NCBI GenBank assembly: GCA_021786375.1
Contig: JAJYNL010000115.1
Coordinates: 1 to 46,468, forward strand
Source of the DNA: Actinomycetes bacterium
GTDB taxonomy: Bacteria; Actinomycetota; Acidimicrobiia; Acidimicrobiales; Acidimicrobiaceae
Direction: 5' to 3'
Length of the DNA stretch: 46,468 nucleotides
In this document: positions 16,712 to 37,162 of the stretch, piece by piece
Position numbering within the stretch: the stretch's first letter is position 1
Layout: every line of letters starts with the position of its first letter
Position numbers and translations under genes: made by a program
Notes under the pieces: generated by a model
Database searches by the model: none
What the model was told of the DNA's origin: nothing
Seen by the model: only the letters and a program-made list of their open reading frames with translations

Positions 16712-17254
16712 CTACTTACCGGTCTTGCCAGCCTTGCGCTGGACCTTCTCGCCGAGATACCGGACACCCTTGCCCTTGTAGGGCTCAGGCTTGCGTATCT
16801 TCCTAATGTTGGCGGCCACCTGGCCAACCACTTCCTTGTCGATTCCCCGAACCACAACCCTGGTCGGGGTCGGCACCTCGAAGGTCACGCCCTCAGGGGC
16901 GACCACGGGAACCGTGTGGGAAAAACCGAGCGACAGCTCGATCTCTCCGGGGCCCTTGGCAACGGCGCGGTAACCGACGCCGATAATCTCGAGCTCCTTG
17001 GTGAAACCGTTGGTCACGCCCGTGACCATGTTCGCCACCAGAGTGCGCGAAAGGCCATGCATCGCCCTGGATAGCCGCTCGTCGTTGGGACGCTCCACCA
17101 GGAGCGTTCCCTCCTCCTGCCGGACGGTGATCTCTCCGGGCAGCGTACGAGAAAGCTTGCCCTTGGGCCCGGAGACGACCAGCTCGTTGGCGCCGGAAAT
17201 CTCCACGCTCACTCCTGCCGGCACTCCGACCGGAACCTTACCGATTCGAGACAT
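16712..17254 (-). CDS. rplF: 50S ribosomal protein L6
   Basis: 180 residues, two repeated L6 domains. [15 protein letters not shown] opens the protein, and the C-terminal signature [17 protein letters not shown] contacts 23S rRNA near the factor-binding site. Confidence 0.98.
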
Positions 17255-17281
17255 ACAAAGTTCCTTCGTTACTACGTGCCG

Positions 17282-17683
17282 CTACCAGACGTAGCAGATG
17301 ATCTCGCCGCCCATGTTCTGCTTGCGCGCCTCACGGTCGGTCATCAGACCCTTCGAGGTCGAGAGCACAGCGACTCCAAGGCCACCCAGCACGCGCGGCA
17401 CCGCATCGGCCCGGCTGTAAACCCGCAGGCCCGGCTTGGAGACACGCTGGATACCCGAGATCACCCTCTTACGGTCAGGCGAGTACTTCAGCCTGATCTC
17501 CAGGAAGTTGCCGGGCTTGCCCTCGGCCGGCTTCACCGAGAAGCTCTCGATATAGCCCTCCTTCTGGAGGATCTCCGCCAAGGCGCCCTTGAGCTTGGAG
17601 CCGGGCATTACCACGGTGTCGTGCATGGCCACATTCGCGTTGCGGATGCGCGTAAGCATGTCCGCGATGGGATCCGTCATCAT
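17282..17683 (-). CDS. rpsH: 30S ribosomal protein S8
   Basis: 133 residues with [13 protein letters not shown] at the N-terminus and the C-terminal [20 protein letters not shown], both diagnostic. Two adjacent ATG codons (17681-17683 and 17678-17680) are possible starts; the difference is one residue. S8 is the translational repressor of spc operons in E. coli; whether that holds here is not visible. Confidence 0.98.
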
Positions 17684-17698
17684 GGCTGTCCCTCCTTC

Positions 17699-17884
17699 CT
17701 ACCAGCTCGCCTTGGTGAGACCGGGGATCTCGCCAGCATGGGCCATCGTCCGCAGGCAGATCCTGCAGAGGCCGAACTTCCTGTAAACCGAGTGGGGCCT
17801 GCCGCAGCGGCCGCAGCGCGAGTATGCCCTCACCTTGTACTTGGCGGCACGCCTCTGCTTCTCGATAAGCGCCTTCTTGGCCAT
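17699..17884 (-). CDS. rpsZ: 30S ribosomal protein S14, zinc type (S14Z)
   Basis: 61 residues, the short zinc form. Cys24 and Cys27 (SRCGRCGR) and Cys40 and Cys43 (GLCRICLR) form the zinc ribbon. This zinc copy inside the spc group is usual in actinobacteria; a zinc-free paralogue, if any, would lie elsewhere. Confidence 0.97.
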
Positions 17885-17892
17885 CTCTTGAA

Positions 17893-18459
17893 CTAACCCT
17901 CTCTCTTGAAGGGGAAACCGAACGCCGCCAGGAGGGCACGCCCCTGATCGTCAGTCTCGGCGGTGGTCACGATGGAAATGTCCATCCCCCGGATGGAGTC
18001 GACCTTGTCGTAGTCCACCTCGGGGAAGATGAGCTGCTCGACTACGCCAAATGTGTAGTTCCCGTGCCCATCGAACGAGTTCGGGTCCAGCCCGCGAAAG
18101 TCACGGATCCTAGGAATTGCCAGGGAGACCAGCCGATCGAAGAACTCCCACATGCGATCGCCGCGCAAGGTCACCTTGGCGCCGATCGCGTTGCCGGCGC
18201 GCAGCTTGAAGCTTGCCACCGACTTACGAGCCCTGGTCACCACCGGCTTCTGGCCGGTAATCGTCTCGAGATCACGCAGCGCGCCCTCGAGCAAGGAGGC
18301 CTGCTGGGTTGCACGGCCGACTCCCATGTTGACGACGATCTTCTCCATGCGCGGGACCTGCATTACGTTGGGCAGGCCCAAGCTCTCCTTGAGCTGCTGG
18401 CGCAGAACGCTGTTGTACCGCTCCTTGAGGCGCGGAATCTCGGGTGCCTCGACGCTCAC
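17893..18459 (-). CDS. rplE: 50S ribosomal protein L5
   Basis: 188 residues with [18 protein letters not shown] and [21 protein letters not shown], the 5S rRNA-binding core, and the C-terminal [20 protein letters not shown]. The GTG start overlaps the rplX stop (GTGA), so translation is coupled. Confidence 0.98.
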
Positions 18460-18761
18460 AGCTCACCTCCACACTTCTTGCAGACGCGCACCTTGACGCC
18501 GTCGGAGTTGAACTTGTAACCGACGCGGGTGGGTCCGTCCGCAGAGCAGATGATCTGGACGTTGGACGCCGAGATGGGCATGTCCTTGTCGATGATCCCG
18601 CCCTGTGTCACTTTGTTGTTCGGCTTGAGGTGCTTCTTGGCGACGTTCACCCGCTCGATGATCAAGCGGTTCTCACCAGGCAGCACACGCGTCACGGTGC
18701 CTTCACGACCCCGTTCCTTGCCTGCCAGCACCTTCACCTTGTCGCCCTTGCGGATCTTCAC
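18456..18761 (-). CDS. rplX: 50S ribosomal protein L24
   Basis: 101 residues: N-terminal KOW motif ([27 protein letters not shown]) and a C-terminal CxxC-like end ([20 protein letters not shown]). The KOW domain starts 50S assembly on 23S rRNA domain I. GTG start, overlapping the rplN stop by one base. Confidence 0.97.
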
Positions 18762-19129
18762 TAGAGCACCTCCGGTGCAAGCGAGATGATTCTCATGAAC
18801 TTCTTGTCACGGAGCTCCCTGCCGACCGGACCGAAGATGCGGGTGCCGCGCGGCTGCATGGCATCGTTGATAATCACCGCAGCGTTCTCGTCGAAGCGGA
18901 TATAGCTGCCGTCGGCACGCCGCTTCTCCTTCTTGGTACGCACCACCACACACTTGACCACGTCACCGCGCTTGACGGCCGCCCCGGGGATGGCGTCCTT
19001 CACGGTCGCGACGAAGATGTCGCCGATACTGGCGTAGCGCCTGCGCGAACCGCCGAGCACCTTGATGACCAGAACTTCCTTGGCGCCGGAGTTGTCGGCA
19101 ACCTTGAGGCGGGTTTCCTGCTGTATCAC
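18761..19129 (-). CDS. rplN: 50S ribosomal protein L14
   Basis: 122 residues with [35 protein letters not shown] and the C-terminal [26 protein letters not shown], all invariant L14 features. The GTG start overlaps the rpsQ stop in a GTGA junction. Confidence 0.98.
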
Positions 19130-19401
19130 CTTGCACGCTCCACGATCTCGATGACCCTCCAGCGCTTGAGCTTGGAGAGCGGACGGGTCTCCTCAACCCG
19201 CACGGTGTCGCCGACATGGGCGTCAAACGTCGAGTCGTGCGCGTAGAGCTTCTTGGTCCGCTGCACCGTCTTGCGATAGCGGGGATGGCGCACGCGCTCG
19301 ATGATCGCCACCACGACTGTGTCGGTCATGCTCTCGGAGATCACCGTGCCCTCGCGCACCTTCTGTCTTGCCTCTTCCACGGCCTTACCCTCTTCGGTCA
19401 T
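19126..19401 (-). CDS. rpsQ: 30S ribosomal protein S17
   Basis: 91 residues from the ATG at 19399-19401, which overlaps the rpmC stop as ATGA. The frame is open much further upstream, but that part is the rpmC/rplP region in another frame. The OB-fold core [27 protein letters not shown] and [20 protein letters not shown] identify S17. A short Glu-rich lead of about 16 residues precedes the core. Confidence 0.97.
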
Positions 19402-19616
19402 CGGGCCACCTGCCCGCCTTGAGCGCTCTTGGCGCGCTCGTTCTGGATGGTACGCAATCGGGCGAGGTCCCTTTTCAAGGAGCCGACCCGCGCGGTGTTG
19501 GCCACTTGCGAGGTAGCCAGGTCGAAACGCAGGTTGAACAGCTCCTTGGTTATCTCCTCGATGCGCTCGGCAAGCTCTGCGTCTGCAAGCGCTCTCAACT
19601 CTGACGGCTTGGTCAT
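19398..19616 (-). CDS. rpmC: 50S ribosomal protein L29
   Basis: 72 residues, two helices: [29 protein letters not shown] and [21 protein letters not shown]29 sits at the tunnel exit and helps form the binding site for trigger factor and SRP. It starts two bases from the rplP stop. Confidence 0.97.
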
Positions 19617-19618
19617 GT

Positions 19619-20050
19619 CTACGCACCCACCCTCTCGGAAAGGTTGTCGCGAACCACGATGCGGGCCTTCATGGGCAACTTCTGGATCGCACGCTCGAGC
19701 GCGCCCCTAGCCAGCTCCTCGGAGACACCGTCCAGTTCGAAGAGAATACGGCCCGGCTTGACCACAGCCACCCAGAACTCCGGATTGCCCTTGCCGGATC
19801 CCATGCGGGTCTCGGCAGGCTTCTTGGTCACCGGCTTGTCCGGGAAGACTCGAATCCACACCTTGCCACCACGGCGGACGTGGCGGGTCATGGCGATACG
19901 GGCAGCCTCTATCTGGCGAGCGGACAGCCAGCCGGCCTCGAGGGCCTGAATACCGAACTGTCCGAAGTTGAGTTCGGTGCCTCCCTTGGCGACGCCGGTA
20001 CGGCGGCCACGCTGCACCTTGCGGTGCTTGACCTTCCTAGGCATCAACAT
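19619..20050 (-). CDS. rplP: 50S ribosomal protein L16
   Basis: 143 residues. The [16 protein letters not shown] opening fits the family (usually MLxPRxxKxRK), so the upstream of two possible ATGs is kept. [27 protein letters not shown] is the conserved loop near the A-site tRNA. It starts two bases after the rpsC stop. Confidence 0.98.
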
Positions 20051-20052
20051 GA

Positions 20053-20955
20053 CTAATCACTCTCCCGCTTGAAGTGGGTGGTCTCATGGGAATCCGGACG
20101 AACTCGCTTCTCGAGCTCCTCGCTGCGGTCCAGAATCTTCTCGAGGTTCTCGTCGGGTGCGGCCGCGGGTGCGGCGGCAACCTCTGCCGCTGGAGTAGCC
20201 ACCGGTGCCGCCTGAGCCGCGGCACGGCCACGGGTCTCACCTGTGCGACGACCACCACCGGCGGAAACGATCCTGCGCGGACGCGCGGGTGCCTCAGGCG
20301 TAGGCTCAGTCTGGCTGGGAACCTTGTAGGGCACGATGTCGCCCTTGTATATCCACACCTTCACGCCAATTCGGCCGAAGGTGGTGCGAGCCTCGCGGAA
20401 GCCGTAATCGATGTCGGCACGCAGCGTGTGCAGCGGCACCCGACCTTCGCGGTAGGACTCCTTGCGGGCCATTTCGGCGCCGCCGAGGCGGCCGGAGCAC
20501 TGGATGCGCACACCCTGTCCACCCGAACGCTCCACCAGCTGAAGCGCACGCTTCATCGCACGACGGAAACTGACGCGGCGCGAGAGCTGATCGGCGATGC
20601 TCTGGGCAACCAGGGAGGCGTCCAGCTCGGGCTGGGAGACTTCCTTCACGTTGAGCTGGACCTTCTCGTTCTCGATCAGCTGGCCGAGGTCGTGACGGAG
20701 CTCCTCGATCTTCTTGCCCTGGTGCCCCACGATCGGGCCGACTTTGGAGGAATAGATGTCGACACGAATGTCGCCCCGCTTACGCTCGATCTCCACACGA
20801 GACAGCTGCAGAGTCTCGAGGCGCTTGGTCAGGAAGTTGCGAATCTTCCAGTCCTCCAGCACCGTCTCGCGATAATTCTTGTCCTCGTACCAGGTCGACT
20901 TCCACTTGGTGGTAACCCCGAGACGGAAGCCGTACGGATTGACCTTCTGACCCAT
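20053..20955 (-). CDS. rpsC: 30S ribosomal protein S3 with C-terminal extension
   Basis: 300 residues. The core (about 1-212) has the opening [14 protein letters not shown], the KH domain ([20 protein letters not shown]) and the C-terminal S3 domain ([18 protein letters not shown]) at the mRNA entry channel. Beyond it are about 85 extra residues: a basic Arg/Gly patch, then a long Ala/Pro/Val-rich stretch, then a charged [17 protein letters not shown] helix. Such tails occur in actinobacterial S3 but vary in sequence. It overlaps the rplV stop by one base. Confidence 0.97.
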
Positions 20956-21635
20956 CAGTTCTTCTCGCTTCCCTCAGAATCCTCGCCGGCTGGCTCGCCC
21001 GTTACCTCGGCCTCAGCCACGGGGGCTTCGGTTGCTTCGGCCTCAACCACTTCAGCAGTCTCAGCCGTCTCGACAACCTCAGCGGCCTCGCTGGTCTCGA
21101 CTACCTCGGTCGACTCCACCGGGGGCGCTTCCAGGACATCCACCTCGACCGGCTCGGCCTCGACGGCCGCAACCTCAGGGGCCTCGCCGCCCAACGAGCG
21201 GCGAACGCGGGCGGCACGGCGGGCGGCACGGCGCGAGTCATCCGCGGAGCGCTTGCGAGCCACCTCGACCAGGCGCTCTGGCTCCATGCGCGAGACAACG
21301 ATGGTGATATGGCTGGTGCGCTTGCGAATGGCCCCGGCGCGCCCACGGGCACGTGGCCGGAAACGCTTCATCGTGATGCCCTCGTCTGCCCAGCACGCCG
21401 AGACGTAAAGCTCGTCTGCGGGGATCGAATCGTTGTTCTCGGCATTGGCCACGGCCGAGGCAAGCAACTTCAGGACCGGCTTGGCGGCCCCACGTTCGGT
21501 GTACACCAGGATGTCGCGGGCGGTGATGATGTCCTTGCCGCGGATCAAACCGAGCACCTCGCGAACCTTGGAAGCGGACGCGTGATGATTCTTGAGCACC
21601 GCACGGGTGCCAGGGATGGTTGCCACGCTGTTCAT
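20955..21635 (-). CDS. rplV: 50S ribosomal protein L22 with long acidic tail
   Basis: 226 residues, about twice the usual length. The core (1-120) includes [21 protein letters not shown] and the tunnel hairpin [27 protein letters not shown] basic linker (about 127-147, Arg/Ala-rich) follows, then about 75 residues (151-226) rich in Glu, Val and Ala with imperfect AEVVET repeats and almost no basic residue. Its ATG overlaps the rpsS stop (ATGA). The tail would emerge on the solvent side near the tunnel exit. Confidence 0.96.
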
Positions 21636-21913
21636 CTCCTCTTGCCGGCCTTCTCCTGCCCGGCGTGGTAACGGAAGGTCCGCGTCGGGCTGAACTCGCC
21701 CAGCTTGTGGCCGACCATCGCCTCGGTGATGTAGACCGGAACGTGCTTACGCCCGTCATGCACCGCGATGGTGTGACCCACCATGTCAGGAATGATGGTG
21801 GAACGACGCGACCAGGTCTTGATCACGCGCTTCTCACCCTTGGCGTTCTGCTCGTCCACCTTCTTCAGGAGGTGGGAGTCCACGAATGGACCCTTCTTCA
21901 GGCTCCTCGCCAT
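21632..21913 (-). CDS. rpsS: 30S ribosomal protein S19
   Basis: 93 residues: [41 protein letters not shown] and [15 protein letters not shown] are all diagnostic. S19 lies in the 30S head with S13. Starts 14 bases after the rplB stop. Confidence 0.98.
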
Positions 21914-21926
21914 CTGCTAAACCCCT

Positions 21927-22763
21927 CTATCGCCTGGCGCCGCGGGTACGGCGGCGGCGGATGATCAACTTGTCACTGTCCTTGCGCTTGGTGCGGGTGC
22001 GGCCTTCGGGCTGGCCCCAAGGCGAAACCGGGTGGCGGCCACCTGAAGTCTTGCCCTCGCCACCACCGAGTGGGTGGTCCACCGGGTTCATGGCCACGCC
22101 ACGAGTCTGAGGACGGACGCCCTTCCAGCGGTTGCGGCCGGCCTTGCCGATGGAGATCAGCTCGGCCTCTGCATTGCCGACCTCGCCCACGGTCGCCCTG
22201 CAGTCGATGGGTACGCGGCGCATCTCGGTGGAGGGAAGGCGCAGGGTGGCGAAGTCACCCTCCTTGGCCACCAGCTGGATGGACATTCCGGCGCCGCGCG
22301 CCAGCTTGCCACCCTGGCCAGGACGGAGCTCCACGTTGTGGACGGTGGTTCCGACCGGGATGTTGCGCAGCGGAAGTGCGTTGCCGATGCGGATGTCGGC
22401 CTCGGCTCCGGACTCCACCATCGCCCCCACCGCCAGGCGGGCAGGGGCCAGGATGTATGCCTTCTCGCCGTCGAGGTAGTGCAGGAGCGCGATCCGAGCA
22501 TTGCGGTTGGGATCGTATTCGATAGCTGCGACCTTGGCCGGAACCCCGTCCTTGCGCCGCTTGAAGTCGATGATGCGGTACTGACGCTTGTGGCCGCCAC
22601 CACGGTGACGCGACGTCTTGCGGCCGTAGCTGTTGCGCCCTCCGGAGGAGCGCTGGGGGGCCAGCAGGCTCTTCTCGGGGTAGTCCTTGGTTATCTCCGT
22701 GAAATCGGAACTCGACTGGAAACGACGCCCCGCGCTGGTCGGCTTTCTCTTCCTGATTGCCAT
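21927..22763 (-). CDS. rplB: 50S ribosomal protein L2
   Basis: 278 residues with the OB-fold and SH3-like domains and the peptidyl-transferase-proximal C-terminal loop [30 protein letters not shown] (in part), carrying the conserved His of [14 protein letters not shown]-type motifs shifted to HPLGGG. That is, the usual second His is Leu here, while the DH pair is kept. Ends in a strongly basic tail. Confidence 0.98.
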
Positions 22764-22773
22764 CTACCGCTAC

Positions 22774-23067
22774 CTATCTCTGCTGCTGGAACAACTCGAT
22801 GGTGCCCTCCTTGAGGGTCACCATGGCGTGCTTCGTGGAGGGGAGCTGGGTGAAGACGCCCGTCTTGCGCGAGCGGCGACGCTTCCCTTTGCGATTGAGG
22901 GTGTTGACCTTGTCGACCTTGACGGAGAAGATCTCCTCGATGGCCTTGCCGATCTCGACCTTGTTGGCTCGGCGGTCCACTACGAAGGTGTAGGTGCCGA
23001 CGTCGGAGAGGCCGTAGGACTTCTCGGAGACCACCGGGCTGATGATGATCGAATAGGGGCTCTTCAT
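22774..23067 (-). CDS. rplW: 50S ribosomal protein L23
   Basis: 97 residues: IIISPVVSEKSYGLSDVGTYTFVVD and KANKVEIGKAIEEIF-type (here RANKVEIGKAIEEIFSVKVDKVNTL) mark L23, a tunnel-exit protein that binds trigger factor and SRP. It starts three bases from the rplD stop. Confidence 0.98.
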   Translation of the reverse strand: MKSPYSIIISPVVSEKSYGLSDVGTYTFVVDRRANKVEIGKAIEEIFSVKVDKVNTLNRKGKRRRSRKTGVFTQLPSTKHAMVTLKEGTIELFQQQR

Positions 23068-23069
23068 CT

Positions 23070-23762
23070 TTACTCCTGGCCCTCCGCGACTTCGCCGGCT
23101 TCCTCTTCTTCGCTCGCGCCCAGCAGCGTCGAGCGCTCGAAGACGACCACGTCGGAACAGAGAATGTCGTAAGGATTCAGTTCGGCCTCGTCGATGAGAT
23201 GAACGTTGGGGATATTGGAGAAGGTGCGGACGAGGTTGTAGTCGTAGGGATCCACAACCAAAAGCACGCGCTTACCCGACAGGCCGGCGCCGGCCAGGAA
23301 GGCCAGCCCCGCCTTGGTCTTGGGAGTATCGTAGGCGAAGGCGTCGACTACGATCACCGCCTCGGAGGCGGCACGATCCGAAAGCGACTGATATAGCGCG
23401 GCCCTCTTCATCTTCTTGGGTGTGCGCTGCTCGTAGCTGCGCGGCTTGGGGCCGAGGGCCACACCGCCGCCCACCCAGTGAGGGGCACGGATGGAACCCT
23501 GGCGGGCGCGGCCGGTGCCCTTCTGGCGGAACGGCTTGCGCCCACCTCCGGAGACCTCGGCGCGTGTCTTGGTGGACTGGGTGCCACGGCGCGCCGCCGC
23601 CAGCTGGGCGGTCACAACCTGGTGCAGCAAGGCGATGTTCGGGGTGAGCCCAAAGACGGAGGGCTCCAGCGCCACTTCGCCGATGCGCTCCCCTTGGCGA
23701 TTTACGAGCGGCGCCTGGTGGCTGGCCAGCTCGCGAACCGGCTTCTCGATCACGTTGGCCAT
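23070..23762 (-). CDS. rplD: 50S ribosomal protein L4
   Basis: 230 residues. The tunnel-lining loop RRGTQSTKTRAEVSGGGRKPFRQKGTGRARQGS is conserved in pattern. The last 15-20 residues are acidic (EEEEAGEVAEGQE). In E. coli L4 represses the S10 operon by attenuation; a terminator-bearing leader sits upstream of rplC here, which makes that mode of control worth considering. Confidence 0.98.
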   Translation of the reverse strand: MANVIEKPVRELASHQAPLVNRQGERIGEVALEPSVFGLTPNIALLHQVVTAQLAAARRGTQSTKTRAEVSGGGRKPFRQKGTGRARQGSIRAPHWVGGGVALGPKPRSYEQRTPKKMKRAALYQSLSDRAASEAVIVVDAFAYDTPKTKAGLAFLAGAGLSGKRVLLVVDPYDYNLVRTFSNIPNVHLIDEAELNPYDILCSDVVVFERSTLLGASEEEEAGEVAEGQE

Positions 23763-23765
23763 GGC

Positions 23766-24407
23766 TTACTTCCCGCCTTTCACAGCGTCACGAACCACGA
23801 CGCGGGACCCCTTGGCGCCAGGAACAGCGCCCTTGATAAGCAACAGTCCGCGCTCCGCATCCGCTTTCACGACCTGCAGGTTCAACGTGGTCACCTTGTC
23901 CGAGCCGTACTGGCCGGCCATGCGCGTGCCCTTGAAGACGCGGGCCGGGGTGGCGCAGGCGCCAATCGAGCCGGGCGCGCGGTGCTTCTTGTGGTTACCG
24001 TGCGCAGCACCCTGGCCGCGGAAATTGTGCCTCTTCATTCCTCCGGAGAAGCCGTGCCCCTTGGAGGTGCCGGTGACATCCACATAGTCGCCGGGCGAAA
24101 GAATCTCGACGCCGTACTGCGAGCCGGCACTGAAGCCGGTGACGTCGTCGAGCCGAAACTCGAGAACCTCCACACCTGGATCCACACCGGCCGCCCGGAA
24201 GACGCCGGCCTCGGGCTTGTTAACGCGCCGAGGATCCTTGTTCCCGTAGGTGACGCACAGCGCCGAATATCCGTCAGTGGAGGGCTGCTTAACCCTCATG
24301 ACCCTGATTGGGTCAACCTTGACAACAGTCACCGGGATCACGCGGTTCTGGTCATCCCAGACCTGCGTCATGCCCAGCTTCCTGCCTATTAGAGCCTTGG
24401 TTGCCAT
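23766..24407 (-). CDS. rplC: 50S ribosomal protein L3
   Basis: 213 residues from the ATG at 24405-24407, chosen because the protein then begins [19 protein letters not shown] as in the family; an upstream in-frame TTG would add eight unlikely residues. [31 protein letters not shown] contains the loop reaching the peptidyl transferase centre. The Shine-Dalgarno is weak (GGAAAG, distant). A 214-base structured spacer separates it from rpsJ. Confidence 0.97.
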
Positions 24408-24621
24408 TTCACATGAACTTTCCACAAACAACGAAGCTCACGCTTCATCCGGTTCGCGGGCCATACGGCCCGCTAAGGCAGACACAAAAACTCCGCCTTG
24501 TTCGGGCGGAGCCTTGCCATCTGTTTGCCAGGAGGTCCTTGCACAAGAGTGCAAGCCTTCCCAGACGTCAAGACACGAAACTCTTCTAGCCTAAACGGGT
24601 TGGGGCCAAAGGCCGCCCCGC
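24408..24621 (-). promoter_or_regulatory. Structured leader with attenuator-like terminator before rplC
   Basis: On the minus strand, from rpsJ toward rplC, the spacer holds: a 7-bp hairpin CTTGCAC/GTGCAAG (24538-24555); a 7-bp GC stem (24491-24497 with 24505-24511) followed by TTTTT (24486-24490), a classical terminator shape; a 7-bp hairpin GCGGGCC/GGCCCGC (24456-24473); and a 5-bp hairpin (24433-24446) close to the rplC start. I see no convincing promoter after the terminator, so read-through must be regulated or partial. An attenuator controlling rplC onward is inferred. Confidence 0.5.
24486..24511 (-). terminator. Terminator/attenuator stem between rpsJ and rplC
   Basis: CTCCGCC and GGCGGAG pair across a 7-base loop and the transcript continues with five T. 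It lies in the middle of what is normally one S10 operon. Confidence 0.65.
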
Positions 24622-24948
24622 TCAGACGTTCTGGATCTTGATCTCGATGTCGACGCCCGCCGGGACGTCGAGGCGCTGGAGCGAGTCCACCGTTTTGGGG
24701 GTGTGCTCGACTATGTCCAGCAAACGCTTATGCACGCGCATCTCGAAATGCTCGCGCGAATCCTTGTGCTTGTGCGGCGAACGGATAACGGTATACCGGG
24801 AGGTCTCCGTGGGTAGCGGCACAGGCCCCTTCACCTTGGCATCGGTACGAAGCACCGTGTCGACGATCTTCTTGGTGGAGGAGTCGAGAATCGCCGCATC
24901 GTAGGCCTTCAGGCGGATCCTGATCCGCTGCCTGGAAGTGTCTGCCAT
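24622..24948 (-). CDS. rpsJ: 30S ribosomal protein S10 (NusE)
   Basis: 108 residues with [22 protein letters not shown], the tRNA-site loop [32 protein letters not shown] and the C-terminal DIEIKIQNV. It doubles as NusE in transcription antitermination and joins transcription to translation through NusG. It follows tuf after a spacer with a 12-bp hairpin and a candidate promoter. Confidence 0.98.
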
Positions 24949-24985
24949 CGCAATTCCCTTAATTCAGTTCAAAGTCAGCCCTAAC

Positions 24986-24991
24986 ATCATA
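24986..24991 (-). promoter_or_regulatory. Candidate -10 TATGAT before rpsJ, in CCCTATGATGT
   Basis: The 11-mer CCCTATGATGT (24984-24994 on the minus strand) also occurs upstream of rplK and, with TATAGT, upstream of rpsL. In each case a GC-rich hairpin replaces the -35 region. Here the same bases could form a small hairpin GCCCTA/TAGGGC (24978-24995), so the promoter role is uncertain. Confidence 0.4.
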
Positions 24992-25006
24992 GGGCCTACA
25001 ACCAAA

Positions 25007-25035
25007 GGACCGGCTCCATCAGCTGGAGCCGGTCC
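25007..25035 (-). terminator. Strong hairpin after tuf
   Basis: A perfect 12-bp stem (25007-25018 with 25024-25035) with a 5-base loop begins about 30 bases after the tuf stop and is followed by TTTGGTTGT. It is a probable intrinsic terminator with an interrupted T-tract, at the str/S10 joint. Confidence 0.65.
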
Positions 25036-25065
25036 CAGTACCTTGGCGAGCCGAAGCTGGCTTGG

Positions 25066-26253
25066 CTACTTGATGATCTTGGTAACCGCGCCCGCGCCGA
25101 CGGTGCGGCCGCCTTCGCGGATGGCGAAGCGCAGCCCCTCGTCCATGGCGATCGGCTTCTGCAGCTCGACCTTCATGGTCACGTTGTCACCCGGTACAAC
25201 CATCTCCTTCCCCTCGGGGAGGGTGATGGTGCCGGTGACGTCGGTGGTGCGGAAGTAGAACTGCGGACGGTAGTTGTTGAAGAACGGCTTGTGACGGCCG
25301 CCTTCCTCCTTCGTCAGGACGTAGACGTTGGCCTCGAACTCGACGTGCGGGGTGATCGAACCCGGCTTGCACAGCACCTGGCCGCGCTCAACCTCGTTCT
25401 TCTTGGTGCCACGGAGAAGCGCGCCGATGTTGTCACCGGCCTGGCCCTCGTCCAGCAGCTTGTTGAACATCTCGACGCCTGTGCAAACCGTCTTCTGGGT
25501 CACGCGCAGGCCGACGATCTCGACCTCGTCGCCAACCTTGACGATTCCGCGCTCCACCTTTCCGGTGACCACGGTGCCGCGGCCCTGGATGGTGAAGACA
25601 TCCTCGATCGGCATCAGGAAGGGCTTCTCCACCGCACGCACGGGCTCGGGGATGTAGCTGTCCACCGCGTCCATCAGCTCGATGATCTTCTCCTGCCACA
25701 CCGGATCGCCCTCGAGGGCCTTGAGGGCCGAAACGCGGATCACCGGGGTGTCGTCACCCGGGAAGTCGTACTCGTTGAGGAGCTCGCGCACCTCGAGCTC
25801 CACCAGGTCGAGGAGTTCCTCATCATCCACCATGTCCGCCTTGTTGAGAGCGACCACGATGTAGGGCACGCCCACCTGGCGGGCGAGAAGCACGTGCTCA
25901 CGAGTCTGAGGCATAGGGCCGTCAGCCGCGGAGACCACGAGGATGGCGCCGTCAACCTGGGCGGCACCCGTGATCATGTTCTTGATGTAGTCCGCGTGGC
26001 CCGGCATATCGACGTGGGCGTAGTGCCGGTTGGGCGTCTCGTACTCGACGTGGGCGATCGAGATGGTTATACCACGGGCCCTCTCTTCAGGGGCCTTGTC
26101 GATCTGGTCGAAGGGGGTGAACTTCACCCCGGGATTCCGTTCTGCCAGCGTCTTGGTGATCGCAGCAGTCAGGGTGGTCTTGCCATGGTCGATGTGCCCC
26201 ATGGTGCCAATGTTCACGTGCGGCTTTGACCGCTCGAACTTCTGCTTTGCCAT
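25066..26253 (-). CDS. tuf: Elongation factor Tu
   Basis: 395 residues. It delivers aminoacyl-tRNA to the ribosome as a GTP complex. G1 is GHIDHGKT (19-26), G3 reads DMPGHADY (Met where many EF-Tu have Cys), and G4 reads NKADMVDD (Ala where many have Cys). Domains 2 and 3 are complete and the protein ends [10 protein letters not shown]. It follows fusA by 79 bases; rpsJ lies downstream. Confidence 0.98.
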
Positions 26254-26332
26254 TGTGGTTAGATTGCTCCGTTACTCCGCACCGGCGCCATGAAGAGACG
26301 GCGACGGCTCCTTACAAGGTACCGATACTAGG

Positions 26333-28417
<2,085 letters not shown>

Positions 28418-28606
28418 TTCGTTCCTCAAAGGTCCACTCGGCCGGGCTGATCGCCTTGGGCCACAGGCGAGCACGTACGCTCGCCTTTGACGCCATCGGT
28501 GCCGCAAGCGGCCAGTGGCGCCCTTTGCAATCCGCGCGCCCTCAGTGCGCGCAAAGAGCCGCGCCCGCTTCCGCGGGCCCGGCTCCGAGTCCAGGAAAGT
28601 CTGCTA
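28418..28606 (-). other. rpsG-fusA spacer with stacked hairpins
   Basis: In transcription order: a 12-bp stem with one mismatch (28556-28561/63-68 with 28573-28578/80-85), followed by TTT; a GCGCGC/GCGCGC hairpin overlapping its 3' side; and GGCGAGC/GCTCGCC shortly before the fusA ribosome site. The first is a weak terminator candidate. No gene and no clear promoter box were seen. Confidence 0.45.
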
Positions 28607-29077
28607 TTACCAGCGGTAGTGCGCGAAGGCCTTATTCGACTCCGCCATCTTGTGCAAGTCCTCGCGGCGCTTTACGGAAGCCCCGATGCCGTTTGAGGCA
28701 TCCAGGATTTCGTTCGCAAGGCGGAGCACCATCGACTTCTCGCGGCGCTTGCGAGAGAAGCCGACGATCCAGCGGATGGAGAGGGTATGGGCGCGACGGC
28801 TCTTCACCTCCACAGGCACCTGATAAGTTGCACCGCCAACTCGGCGGGAGCGGACCTCGAGCTCGGGCTTGGTGTTCTCGATCGCCTTCTTCAAAATGGT
28901 GAGGGGATCGCCGCCGGTGCGCTCCTTGATGTTGTCAAGAGCGCCGTAGACAATGCTCTCGGCCAAGGTCTTCTTACCCCGGGAGAGGATCTTGTTGATC
29001 AACTGGGTGACCAGGGTCGAGTGGTAAACCGGGTCGGGAACGATCTCACGGCGTGGTGCTGGGCCTTTGCGCGGCAT
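28607..29077 (-). CDS. rpsG: 30S ribosomal protein S7
   Basis: 156 residues: [20 protein letters not shown] opens the protein and [28 protein letters not shown] is the hairpin near the E-site tRNA. The length matches the short (156-residue) actinobacterial form. It starts five bases beyond the rpsL stop. Confidence 0.98.
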
Positions 29078-29081
29078 CTGC

Positions 29082-29453
29082 CTACTTCTCCTTCTTCGCG
29101 CCGTAGCGGCTGCGCGCCTGCTTGCGGTTCTTCACGCCGGAGGTATCCAGCGCGCCGCGGATGATCTTGTAACGGACACCAGGGAGGTCCTTGACGCGGC
29201 CGCCCCTGACCAGGACGATGGAGTGCTCCTGGAGGTTGTGCCCGACCCCGGGGATATACGCTGTGACCTCCACACCTGAGGTGAGGCGAACGCGAGCCAC
29301 CTTCCGCAGAGCCGAGTTCGGCTTCTTGGGAGTGGTGGTGTAGACGCGCGTGCACACCCCACGGCGCTGAGGCGCACCCTTCAGGGCCGGGGTCTTGGTC
29401 TTGGACCTCTTCGACTCCCTGCCGGTGCGAACCAGCTGAGCTATCGTTGGCAT
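29082..29453 (-). CDS. rpsL: 30S ribosomal protein S12
   Basis: 123 residues with [19 protein letters not shown] and [16 protein letters not shown]. Lys43 and the later KDLPG motif, where streptomycin-resistance substitutions fall in other bacteria, have the common (sensitive-type) residues. First gene of the str group; the upstream spacer has a terminator-like hairpin and a candidate promoter. Confidence 0.98.
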
Positions 29454-29602
29454 CGGTTAATCTCCATCCAGCTTCCGCCAAGCGCTGCGGGAACCTCCCG
29501 CCGCGCGGCTTTCCAAAAAAGGCCGCCCCGTCTCTCCGAGGCCCTGCCCAAACTCTCTTCCATCGGCCAGCCGGGCCGATGGCGAAAAATTGCCAAAATT
29601 AC

Positions 29603-29608
29603 ACTATA
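29603..29608 (-). promoter_or_regulatory. Candidate -10 TATAGT before rpsL, in CCCTATAGTGT
   Basis: The minus strand reads CCCTATAGTGT (29601-29611), five bases after a large hairpin, giving a leader of about 145 bases. No -35 box is visible because the hairpin fills that position. The 11-mer matches the ones before rpsJ and rplK in 9 of 11 positions. Confidence 0.45.
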
Positions 29609-29613
29609 GGGTC

Positions 29614-29648
29614 CGGGCTGGGGCCGACCTGCATCGGCCCCCAGCCCG
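29614..29648 (-). terminator. Large hairpin after rpoC
   Basis: A 14-bp stem with one bulged base (29614-29627 with 29634-29648) and a 6-base loop starts 15 bases after the rpoC stop. T-rich sequence follows only after about 12 bases, so it is a candidate terminator of the non-classical kind. A second perfect 9-bp hairpin lies at 29560-29582. Confidence 0.55.
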
Positions 29649-29662
29649 ATCACTGATCGCGC

Positions 29663-37162
<7,500 letters not shown>

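Follow-up and report, generated by a model that had tools for sequence, protein, structure and literature searches.

Comparative sequence analysis identifies the stretch before rplC in Acidimicrobiia, a class of soil and water bacteria, as a conserved, covarying leader RNA. Within the genomes searched, the RNA was seen only in this class and only just upstream of rplC. It lies where the S10 operon is split, with rpsJ joining the str genes and rplC heading a new unit that carries its own candidate promoter and leader. The RNA is most likely a ribosomal-protein leader (r-leader), a well-known kind of regulatory RNA, and represents a candidate control point for the largest ribosomal-protein operon across a whole bacterial class. 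Where the operon is split, a regulatory RNA would stand at its new head, with S10/NusE left with the elongation factors. A single RNA and a few proteins would now suffice for a direct test of which protein regulates this operon in bacteria other than enterobacteria.

Gene order and features of the rpsJ-rplC spacer

In the window (the whole 46,468-nt stretch of DNA that was analyzed), the ribosomal-protein genes are all on the minus strand, as the run rpsG-fusA-tuf-rpsJ and then rplC-rplD-rplW-rplB-rpsS-rplV. The rplC ATG is at 24407-24405, and the spacer between rpsJ and rplC occupies exactly 24408-24621 (214 nt). The features of the spacer and its flanking genes, with the basis of each, are as follows.

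24622-24948, minus strand: rpsJ (S10/NusE), end gene of the rpsG-fusA-tuf-rpsJ run (NCBIfam PRK00596.1/TIGR01049, gene order)
24581-24595, minus strand: TTTAGGCTAGAAGAG, candidate -10 region (TAGGCT) of a putative rplC-operon promoter (comparison of TAnnnT boxes)
24473-24572, minus strand: conserved leader RNA of approximately 100 nt, positions 1-101 of covariance model R1 (R1 match)
24526-24569, minus strand: core of the leader, a P1 helix around an internal loop (AGG / GACC) plus the P2 hairpin (covariation)
24555-24538, minus strand: hairpin CTTGCAC-TCTT-GTGCAAG, which is P2 (sequence)
24490-24513, minus strand: P3 helix, GGCTCCGCC...GGCGGAGT, with the invariant core UCCG/CGGA (alignment)
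24511-24505 and 24497-24491, minus strand: stem CTCCGCC/GGCGGAG (sequence)
24490-24486, minus strand: run of five T residues (T5) directly after that stem (sequence)
24481-24494, minus strand: leader tail GGAGTTTTTGTGTC, in which T5 is genus specific, other genera having GGAGC(G/A)TT(T/G)GCGTG (comparison)
24433-24473, minus strand: two further hairpins, GCGGGCC/GGCCCGC (24473-24456) and GAAGC/GCTTC (24446-24433) (sequence)
24415-24424, minus strand: presumed rplC Shine-Dalgarno region, TGGAAAGTTC (sequence only)
23766-24407, minus strand: rplC (L3), head gene of the leader-borne unit, then rplD, rplW, rplB, rpsS, and rplV (NCBIfam TIGR03625)

The original prediction had described a terminator-bearing leader in this spacer. 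All of the hairpins that it named, as well as T5, are present, and its terminator stem corresponds to P3. The two hairpins situated past the leader, ahead of the ribosome-binding site of rplC, were recognized by eye and in near relatives only. When the spacer was folded (24409-24621), a minimum free energy of -93.3 kcal/mol was obtained, compared with -76.9 ± 4.5 kcal/mol in dinucleotide shuffles (z = -3.63), none of 200 shuffles being equally stable. A generic terminator scan of positions 17000-36900 returned 13 sites, with 13.7 expected, and the CTCCGCC/GGCGGAG stem was not among them. The stem and T-run alone are thus no better than chance here, and the case for an RNA in the spacer is carried by the comparative evidence and not by these two elements.

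Several other features of the window were recorded. L4 (23070-23762, minus strand) is 230 amino acids long, with approximately 30 residues preceding its family match, and scores higher with the "sunset domain" L4 model than with the general one, at a value below the cutoff of the former. With 226 amino acids, L22 (20955-21635, minus strand) is roughly double its family match in length (residues 12-114) and carries a long C-terminal extension. Upstream of the str genes, a stem with T6 (29525-29542, minus strand) may mark where the preceding unit ends; the long open reading frames of that unit, at 29663-33598 and 33599-37162, resemble rpoC and rpoB, by size alone.

Structure, covariation, and distribution of the leader RNA

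The rplC loci were gathered from 60 related genomes and 80 named contigs, and the rpsJ-rplC spacers were excised. A sequence-only MAFFT alignment (A1) was made from 24 of the 47 segments located among 49 loci tried, using only those with a clean anchor. All three helices were supported in this alignment, with 18 of 24 pairs altered on both sides. The covariation score was 0.376, compared with 0.150 in shuffles, and none of 500 shuffles scored as high; sliding of the pairing partners abolished the score. P1 and P2 covary strongly and the outer pair of P3 also covaries, while the lower part of P3 (UCCG/CGGA) yields no covariation because it is invariant. In the core alignment (A3, 55 of 80 cores), 11 of 12 pairs were altered on both sides, and G4, U5 (bulged), G14, A39, C40, and C48 were invariant across the 55 sequences. 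Columns 12 and 38, in the internal loop, covary in a non-Watson-Crick manner (GG in 32 and AA in 10 of the 55), which suggests a noncanonical G.G or A.A pair in the predicted protein-binding site. An MI-APC analysis to which no structure was supplied, performed on a model-fitted alignment, placed P1, P2, and outer P3 pairs among its top nine. The original prediction had made its case depend on conservation or covariation of the stem in relatives, and it came through this comparison, a conserved, covarying RNA having been found between rpsJ and rplC.

Across genera, the motif consists, in order, of GACGUC-P1, the internal loop (NNG / NACC), the P2 hairpin, and the closing strand of P1 with CA, followed in its 3' part by an A-rich linker, P3 (GCUCCG...CGGAGC), and the tail GUUUGCGUG.

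Using R1, a single match was found in the window's own genome (61.5 bits, E = 3.8e-17), the window sequence being part of the seed. After the omission of 14 duplicates or near-duplicates, 97 of 111 rplC loci were scanned; 93 carried a same-strand match (90 at E < 1e-5), ending 1 to 190 nt (median, 36) before rplC. Among the 60 relatives, 46 had one match at E < 1e-12, and all 46 matches were on the rplC strand, directly upstream of the gene. The other 14 comprised 4 without an rplC match and 10 from genera g4, g5, and g7 of the window's family; no strong R1 match was found in these 10, of which the two inspected retain the core with a different P3. In an even draw of genomes, 134 of 296 from the class matched R1. 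Across the phylum, 47 of 396 genomes matched at E ≤ 0.001, with the strong matches all within Acidimicrobiia. None of 12 regions around weak out-of-class or secondary R1 matches contained an S10- or str-operon gene; the one such region inspected whole was discarded, as it held the end of a cold-shock-type gene (named by inspection) and a hairpin.

Candidate promoter and division of the S10 operon

To the 5' side of the RNA, in a span bounded by rpsJ or a 90-nt limit, a TAnnnT hexamer was found in 85 of 87 loci (89 leaders, 87 scored), compared with 38.6 ± 4.2 (maximum, 51) in 200 shuffles. Matches to TATAAT at five or more of six positions occurred in 22 loci versus 5.6 in shuffles. The window's own TAGGCT is a weak match (three of six), and no clear -35 box was seen for this candidate promoter.

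For 68 of the 89 distinct leaders, rpsJ was present in the upstream DNA, at 140 to 2591 nt from rplC and never within 100 nt; the distance exceeded 1 kb in nine of the 68 loci. In one locus (L105), the interval contains a same-strand trypsin/PDZ-like protease gene (named by inspection), and a long opposite-strand open reading frame adjoins the leader. Thirty comparison loci were taken from genomes with no listed R1 match or with a weak match elsewhere only. In 23 of these, rpsJ and rplC lay within 76 nt of each other (gene starts are approximate). The remaining seven have long spacers, and with model R2 the core was clear in four and matched at E = 0.012 in L169, whereas no motif was found in L165 and L191. 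Three of the 23 short-spacer loci were also searched with R2, with no significant match. As the RNA occurs with a long spacer and leaderless loci are mostly short, the RNA accompanies the rpsJ-rplC split. The spacer would hold a separate promoter and then a folded 5' leader for the rplC-rplD-rplW-rplB-rpsS-rplV... operon. The proposal that S10/NusE is detached from the unit beginning with L3 and L4 is borne out by this placement of the leader.

The distance between tuf and rpsJ was 30 nt or less in 30 of 65 loci. In the window's family this gap is wider (approximately 69 to 138 nt, versus 5 to 30 nt in many other families), which may mean that rpsJ is to some extent uncoupled from tuf in this family as well. 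A 13-bp GC-rich hairpin and then a T-rich stretch are located between tuf and rpsJ in the window (25006-25036, minus strand).

Proposed function and relation to known leaders

Both a consistent place ahead of a ribosomal-protein operon and a secondary structure with covariation were found, as expected of an r-leader, its location in a 5' untranslated region being inferred from the -10-like box. We consider it probable that the rplC operon has its own promoter and a structured, autogenous ribosomal-protein leader that acts on translation in preference to termination. By analogy with other leaders, autogenous repression is its likeliest function: an operon-encoded ribosomal protein in excess over rRNA would bind the P1/internal-loop/P2 element and the invariant P3, and this binding would lower expression of the operon. 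Class-wide, control at rplC translation appears more likely than intrinsic termination, because only one genus has the T-run and because a median of 36 nt separates the end of the leader from rplC. In 85 of the 89 leaders, the accessibility of the rplC Shine-Dalgarno sequence and start was compared between native and shuffled leaders, and the region was predicted to be more open behind the native ones (0.54 versus 0.47, P = 2.5e-7), which would fit a leader that is on by default.

The original prediction reasoned that, should transcription run on from rpsJ to rplC, the spacer would have to act as an attenuator, with L4 a candidate ligand; in this model, an intrinsic terminator or attenuator halts transcripts at T5 under L4 control. 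The stem and T5 at 24511-24486 are consistent with such a mechanism, a T-run of at least five is present in all 10 distinct members of the window's genus that were scored, and L4 of Escherichia coli works by attenuation (PMC10931766). However, among the 83 of 89 leaders scored for T-runs, just 11 have four or more T residues after P3; 10 of these belong to members of the window's genus, and the 11th (L031) has four. Outside this genus, the tail is mostly GC(G/A)UU(U/G/C)GCGUG. T5 is thus a variant, found at the level of one genus, of a tail that is otherwise conserved, the apparent stop signal being a by-product of the RNA's fold, and the combination of a GC stem and a conserved U-run that marks intrinsic terminators was found only within that genus. 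Judged from these tails, the RNA is not primarily a terminator across the class; a termination component in the window's genus is possible, and to that genus the terminator reading is confined. Passage of transcription from rpsJ into rplC is also not supported, given the -10-like box that intervenes after rpsJ and ahead of the leader, the other genes that part the two in some of the class, the intervals of more than 1 kb, and the opposite-strand open reading frame of L105. Attenuation of this kind is therefore distinctly unlikely as the general explanation. We attach still less weight to the idea that the spacer is simply the end of the str operon and a new promoter, with hairpins that serve only for termination or insulation, no protein being bound. 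Two units do meet at the spacer, and a hairpin also follows rpsJ (24619-24602, minus strand), but the internal loop, bulged U, and invariant UCCG/CGGA, together with the covarying P1 and P2, are unlike terminators, and the RNA is downstream of the promoter box and remains next to rplC even in loci where rpsJ is several kilobases distant.

Given a ribosomal-protein leader, L4 is the most likely ligand, a tentative choice on weak evidence. It is favored by its control of the corresponding E. coli operon and by the presence, in the S10 leader of that species, of a GCUCC...GGAGC hairpin. That the leader binds another ribosomal protein of the operon and not L4 (L3, or L23, L2, L22, or S3), a reading that overlaps the preferred one, is a somewhat weaker prospect; L3, next likeliest as an individual ligand, would be a rather unlikely one. 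L3 is encoded by the adjacent gene, and the ligand of many r-leaders is the protein encoded first, or alone, behind them (Eckert and Weinberg 2020, PMC7247131); against this, regulation of the homologous E. coli operon by L4 is well established (PMC10931766), and the GCUCC/GGAGC hairpin is common to P3 and the E. coli leader. Mimicry of rRNA, sought for both the whole motif and the core, was not found, which counts against L4: R1 found no 23S or 16S match in three Acidimicrobiia rRNA loci, R2 with filters off reached at best 12.9 bits (E = 0.48) in an rRNA locus, and a pattern scan gave one match, in one rRNA locus of the three, while a control locus gave a comparable match by chance. Two apparent copies were rejected, namely, GUCUGGGAAGGC as 23S helix 19 (the L4 region), which makes up half of P1 and changes from genus to genus together with its partner, and P3 as 16S helix 18 (E. 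coli CUCCG/CGGAG), a helix that reads ACGUAG in the two Acidimicrobiia loci in which it was located. L4, the ligand named originally, is thus left plausible through one post hoc hairpin resemblance, with no rRNA mimicry found.

The 3' strand of P3 contains a near-invariant GGAG, with an NUG codon 7 nt on (consensus) in 73 of 89 leaders (56 GUG, 13 AUG, and 4 UUG). This codon has no fixed frame with rplC and no conserved open frame, and an upstream open reading frame was rejected, as the frames are uniform (23/24/26) and the lengths scattered. A very doubtful variant of the leader model is an internal false start, in which a 30S subunit held at the noncoding GGAG-NUG decoy would keep rplC untranslated; a ribosomal protein clamping P1-P2-P3 would hold the subunit there. 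If true, the S10 operon would be controlled by trapping, a mode that would have arisen when rpsJ (NusE) stayed with the str operon.

In E. coli, L4 controls the S10 operon at both transcription and translation (PMC10931766, in part). The S10 leader of E. coli is likewise a structured leader of an operon with rplC-rplD-rplW-rplB, but it precedes rpsJ, whereas the Acidimicrobiia leader follows rpsJ and precedes rplC; rpsJ and rplC are 32 nt apart in E. coli, versus 140 to 2591 nt in leader-bearing loci. A GCUCC...GGAGC hairpin like P3 occurs in the E. coli leader and in 13 of 5,000 shuffles, the comparison being post hoc; we take this hairpin to be the "HD" element needed for L4. On the E. coli leader strand, R1 scored no higher than 5.0 bits (E = 0.78), and with R2 there was no significant match. 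The E. coli leader is, by these searches, not a homolog, and the Acidimicrobiia RNA, with neither a homologous structure nor a position before rpsJ, is not a leader of the E. coli L4/S10 type.

The L4 r-leader of Archaeoglobi (rplC, rplD, rplW, rplB, and others) is a predicted leader before rplC and rplD that resembles the Acidimicrobiia RNA in gene setting; it is archaeal and borderline according to its authors (PMC7247131, in part). None of the 20 r-leaders in Table 1 of the same study (Eckert and Weinberg 2020) precedes rplC in Actinobacteria. The RNA is also unreported in the portions consulted of PMC11109978, PMC6429828, PMC2864571, PMC7186457, PMC10931766, and PMC2704228, and no such leader is mentioned in the corresponding portions of the other motif surveys searched. 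The ribosomal-leader families of Rfam 15 are likewise cis-regulatory RNAs of ribosomal-protein operons; no Rfam 15 family reached its gathering score at the window locus or 19 homologs (20 loci), and matches at the window locus with E values up to 5 were chance-like only. Taken as an r-leader, the Acidimicrobiia RNA is a new family of a known kind in an uncommon genomic setting.
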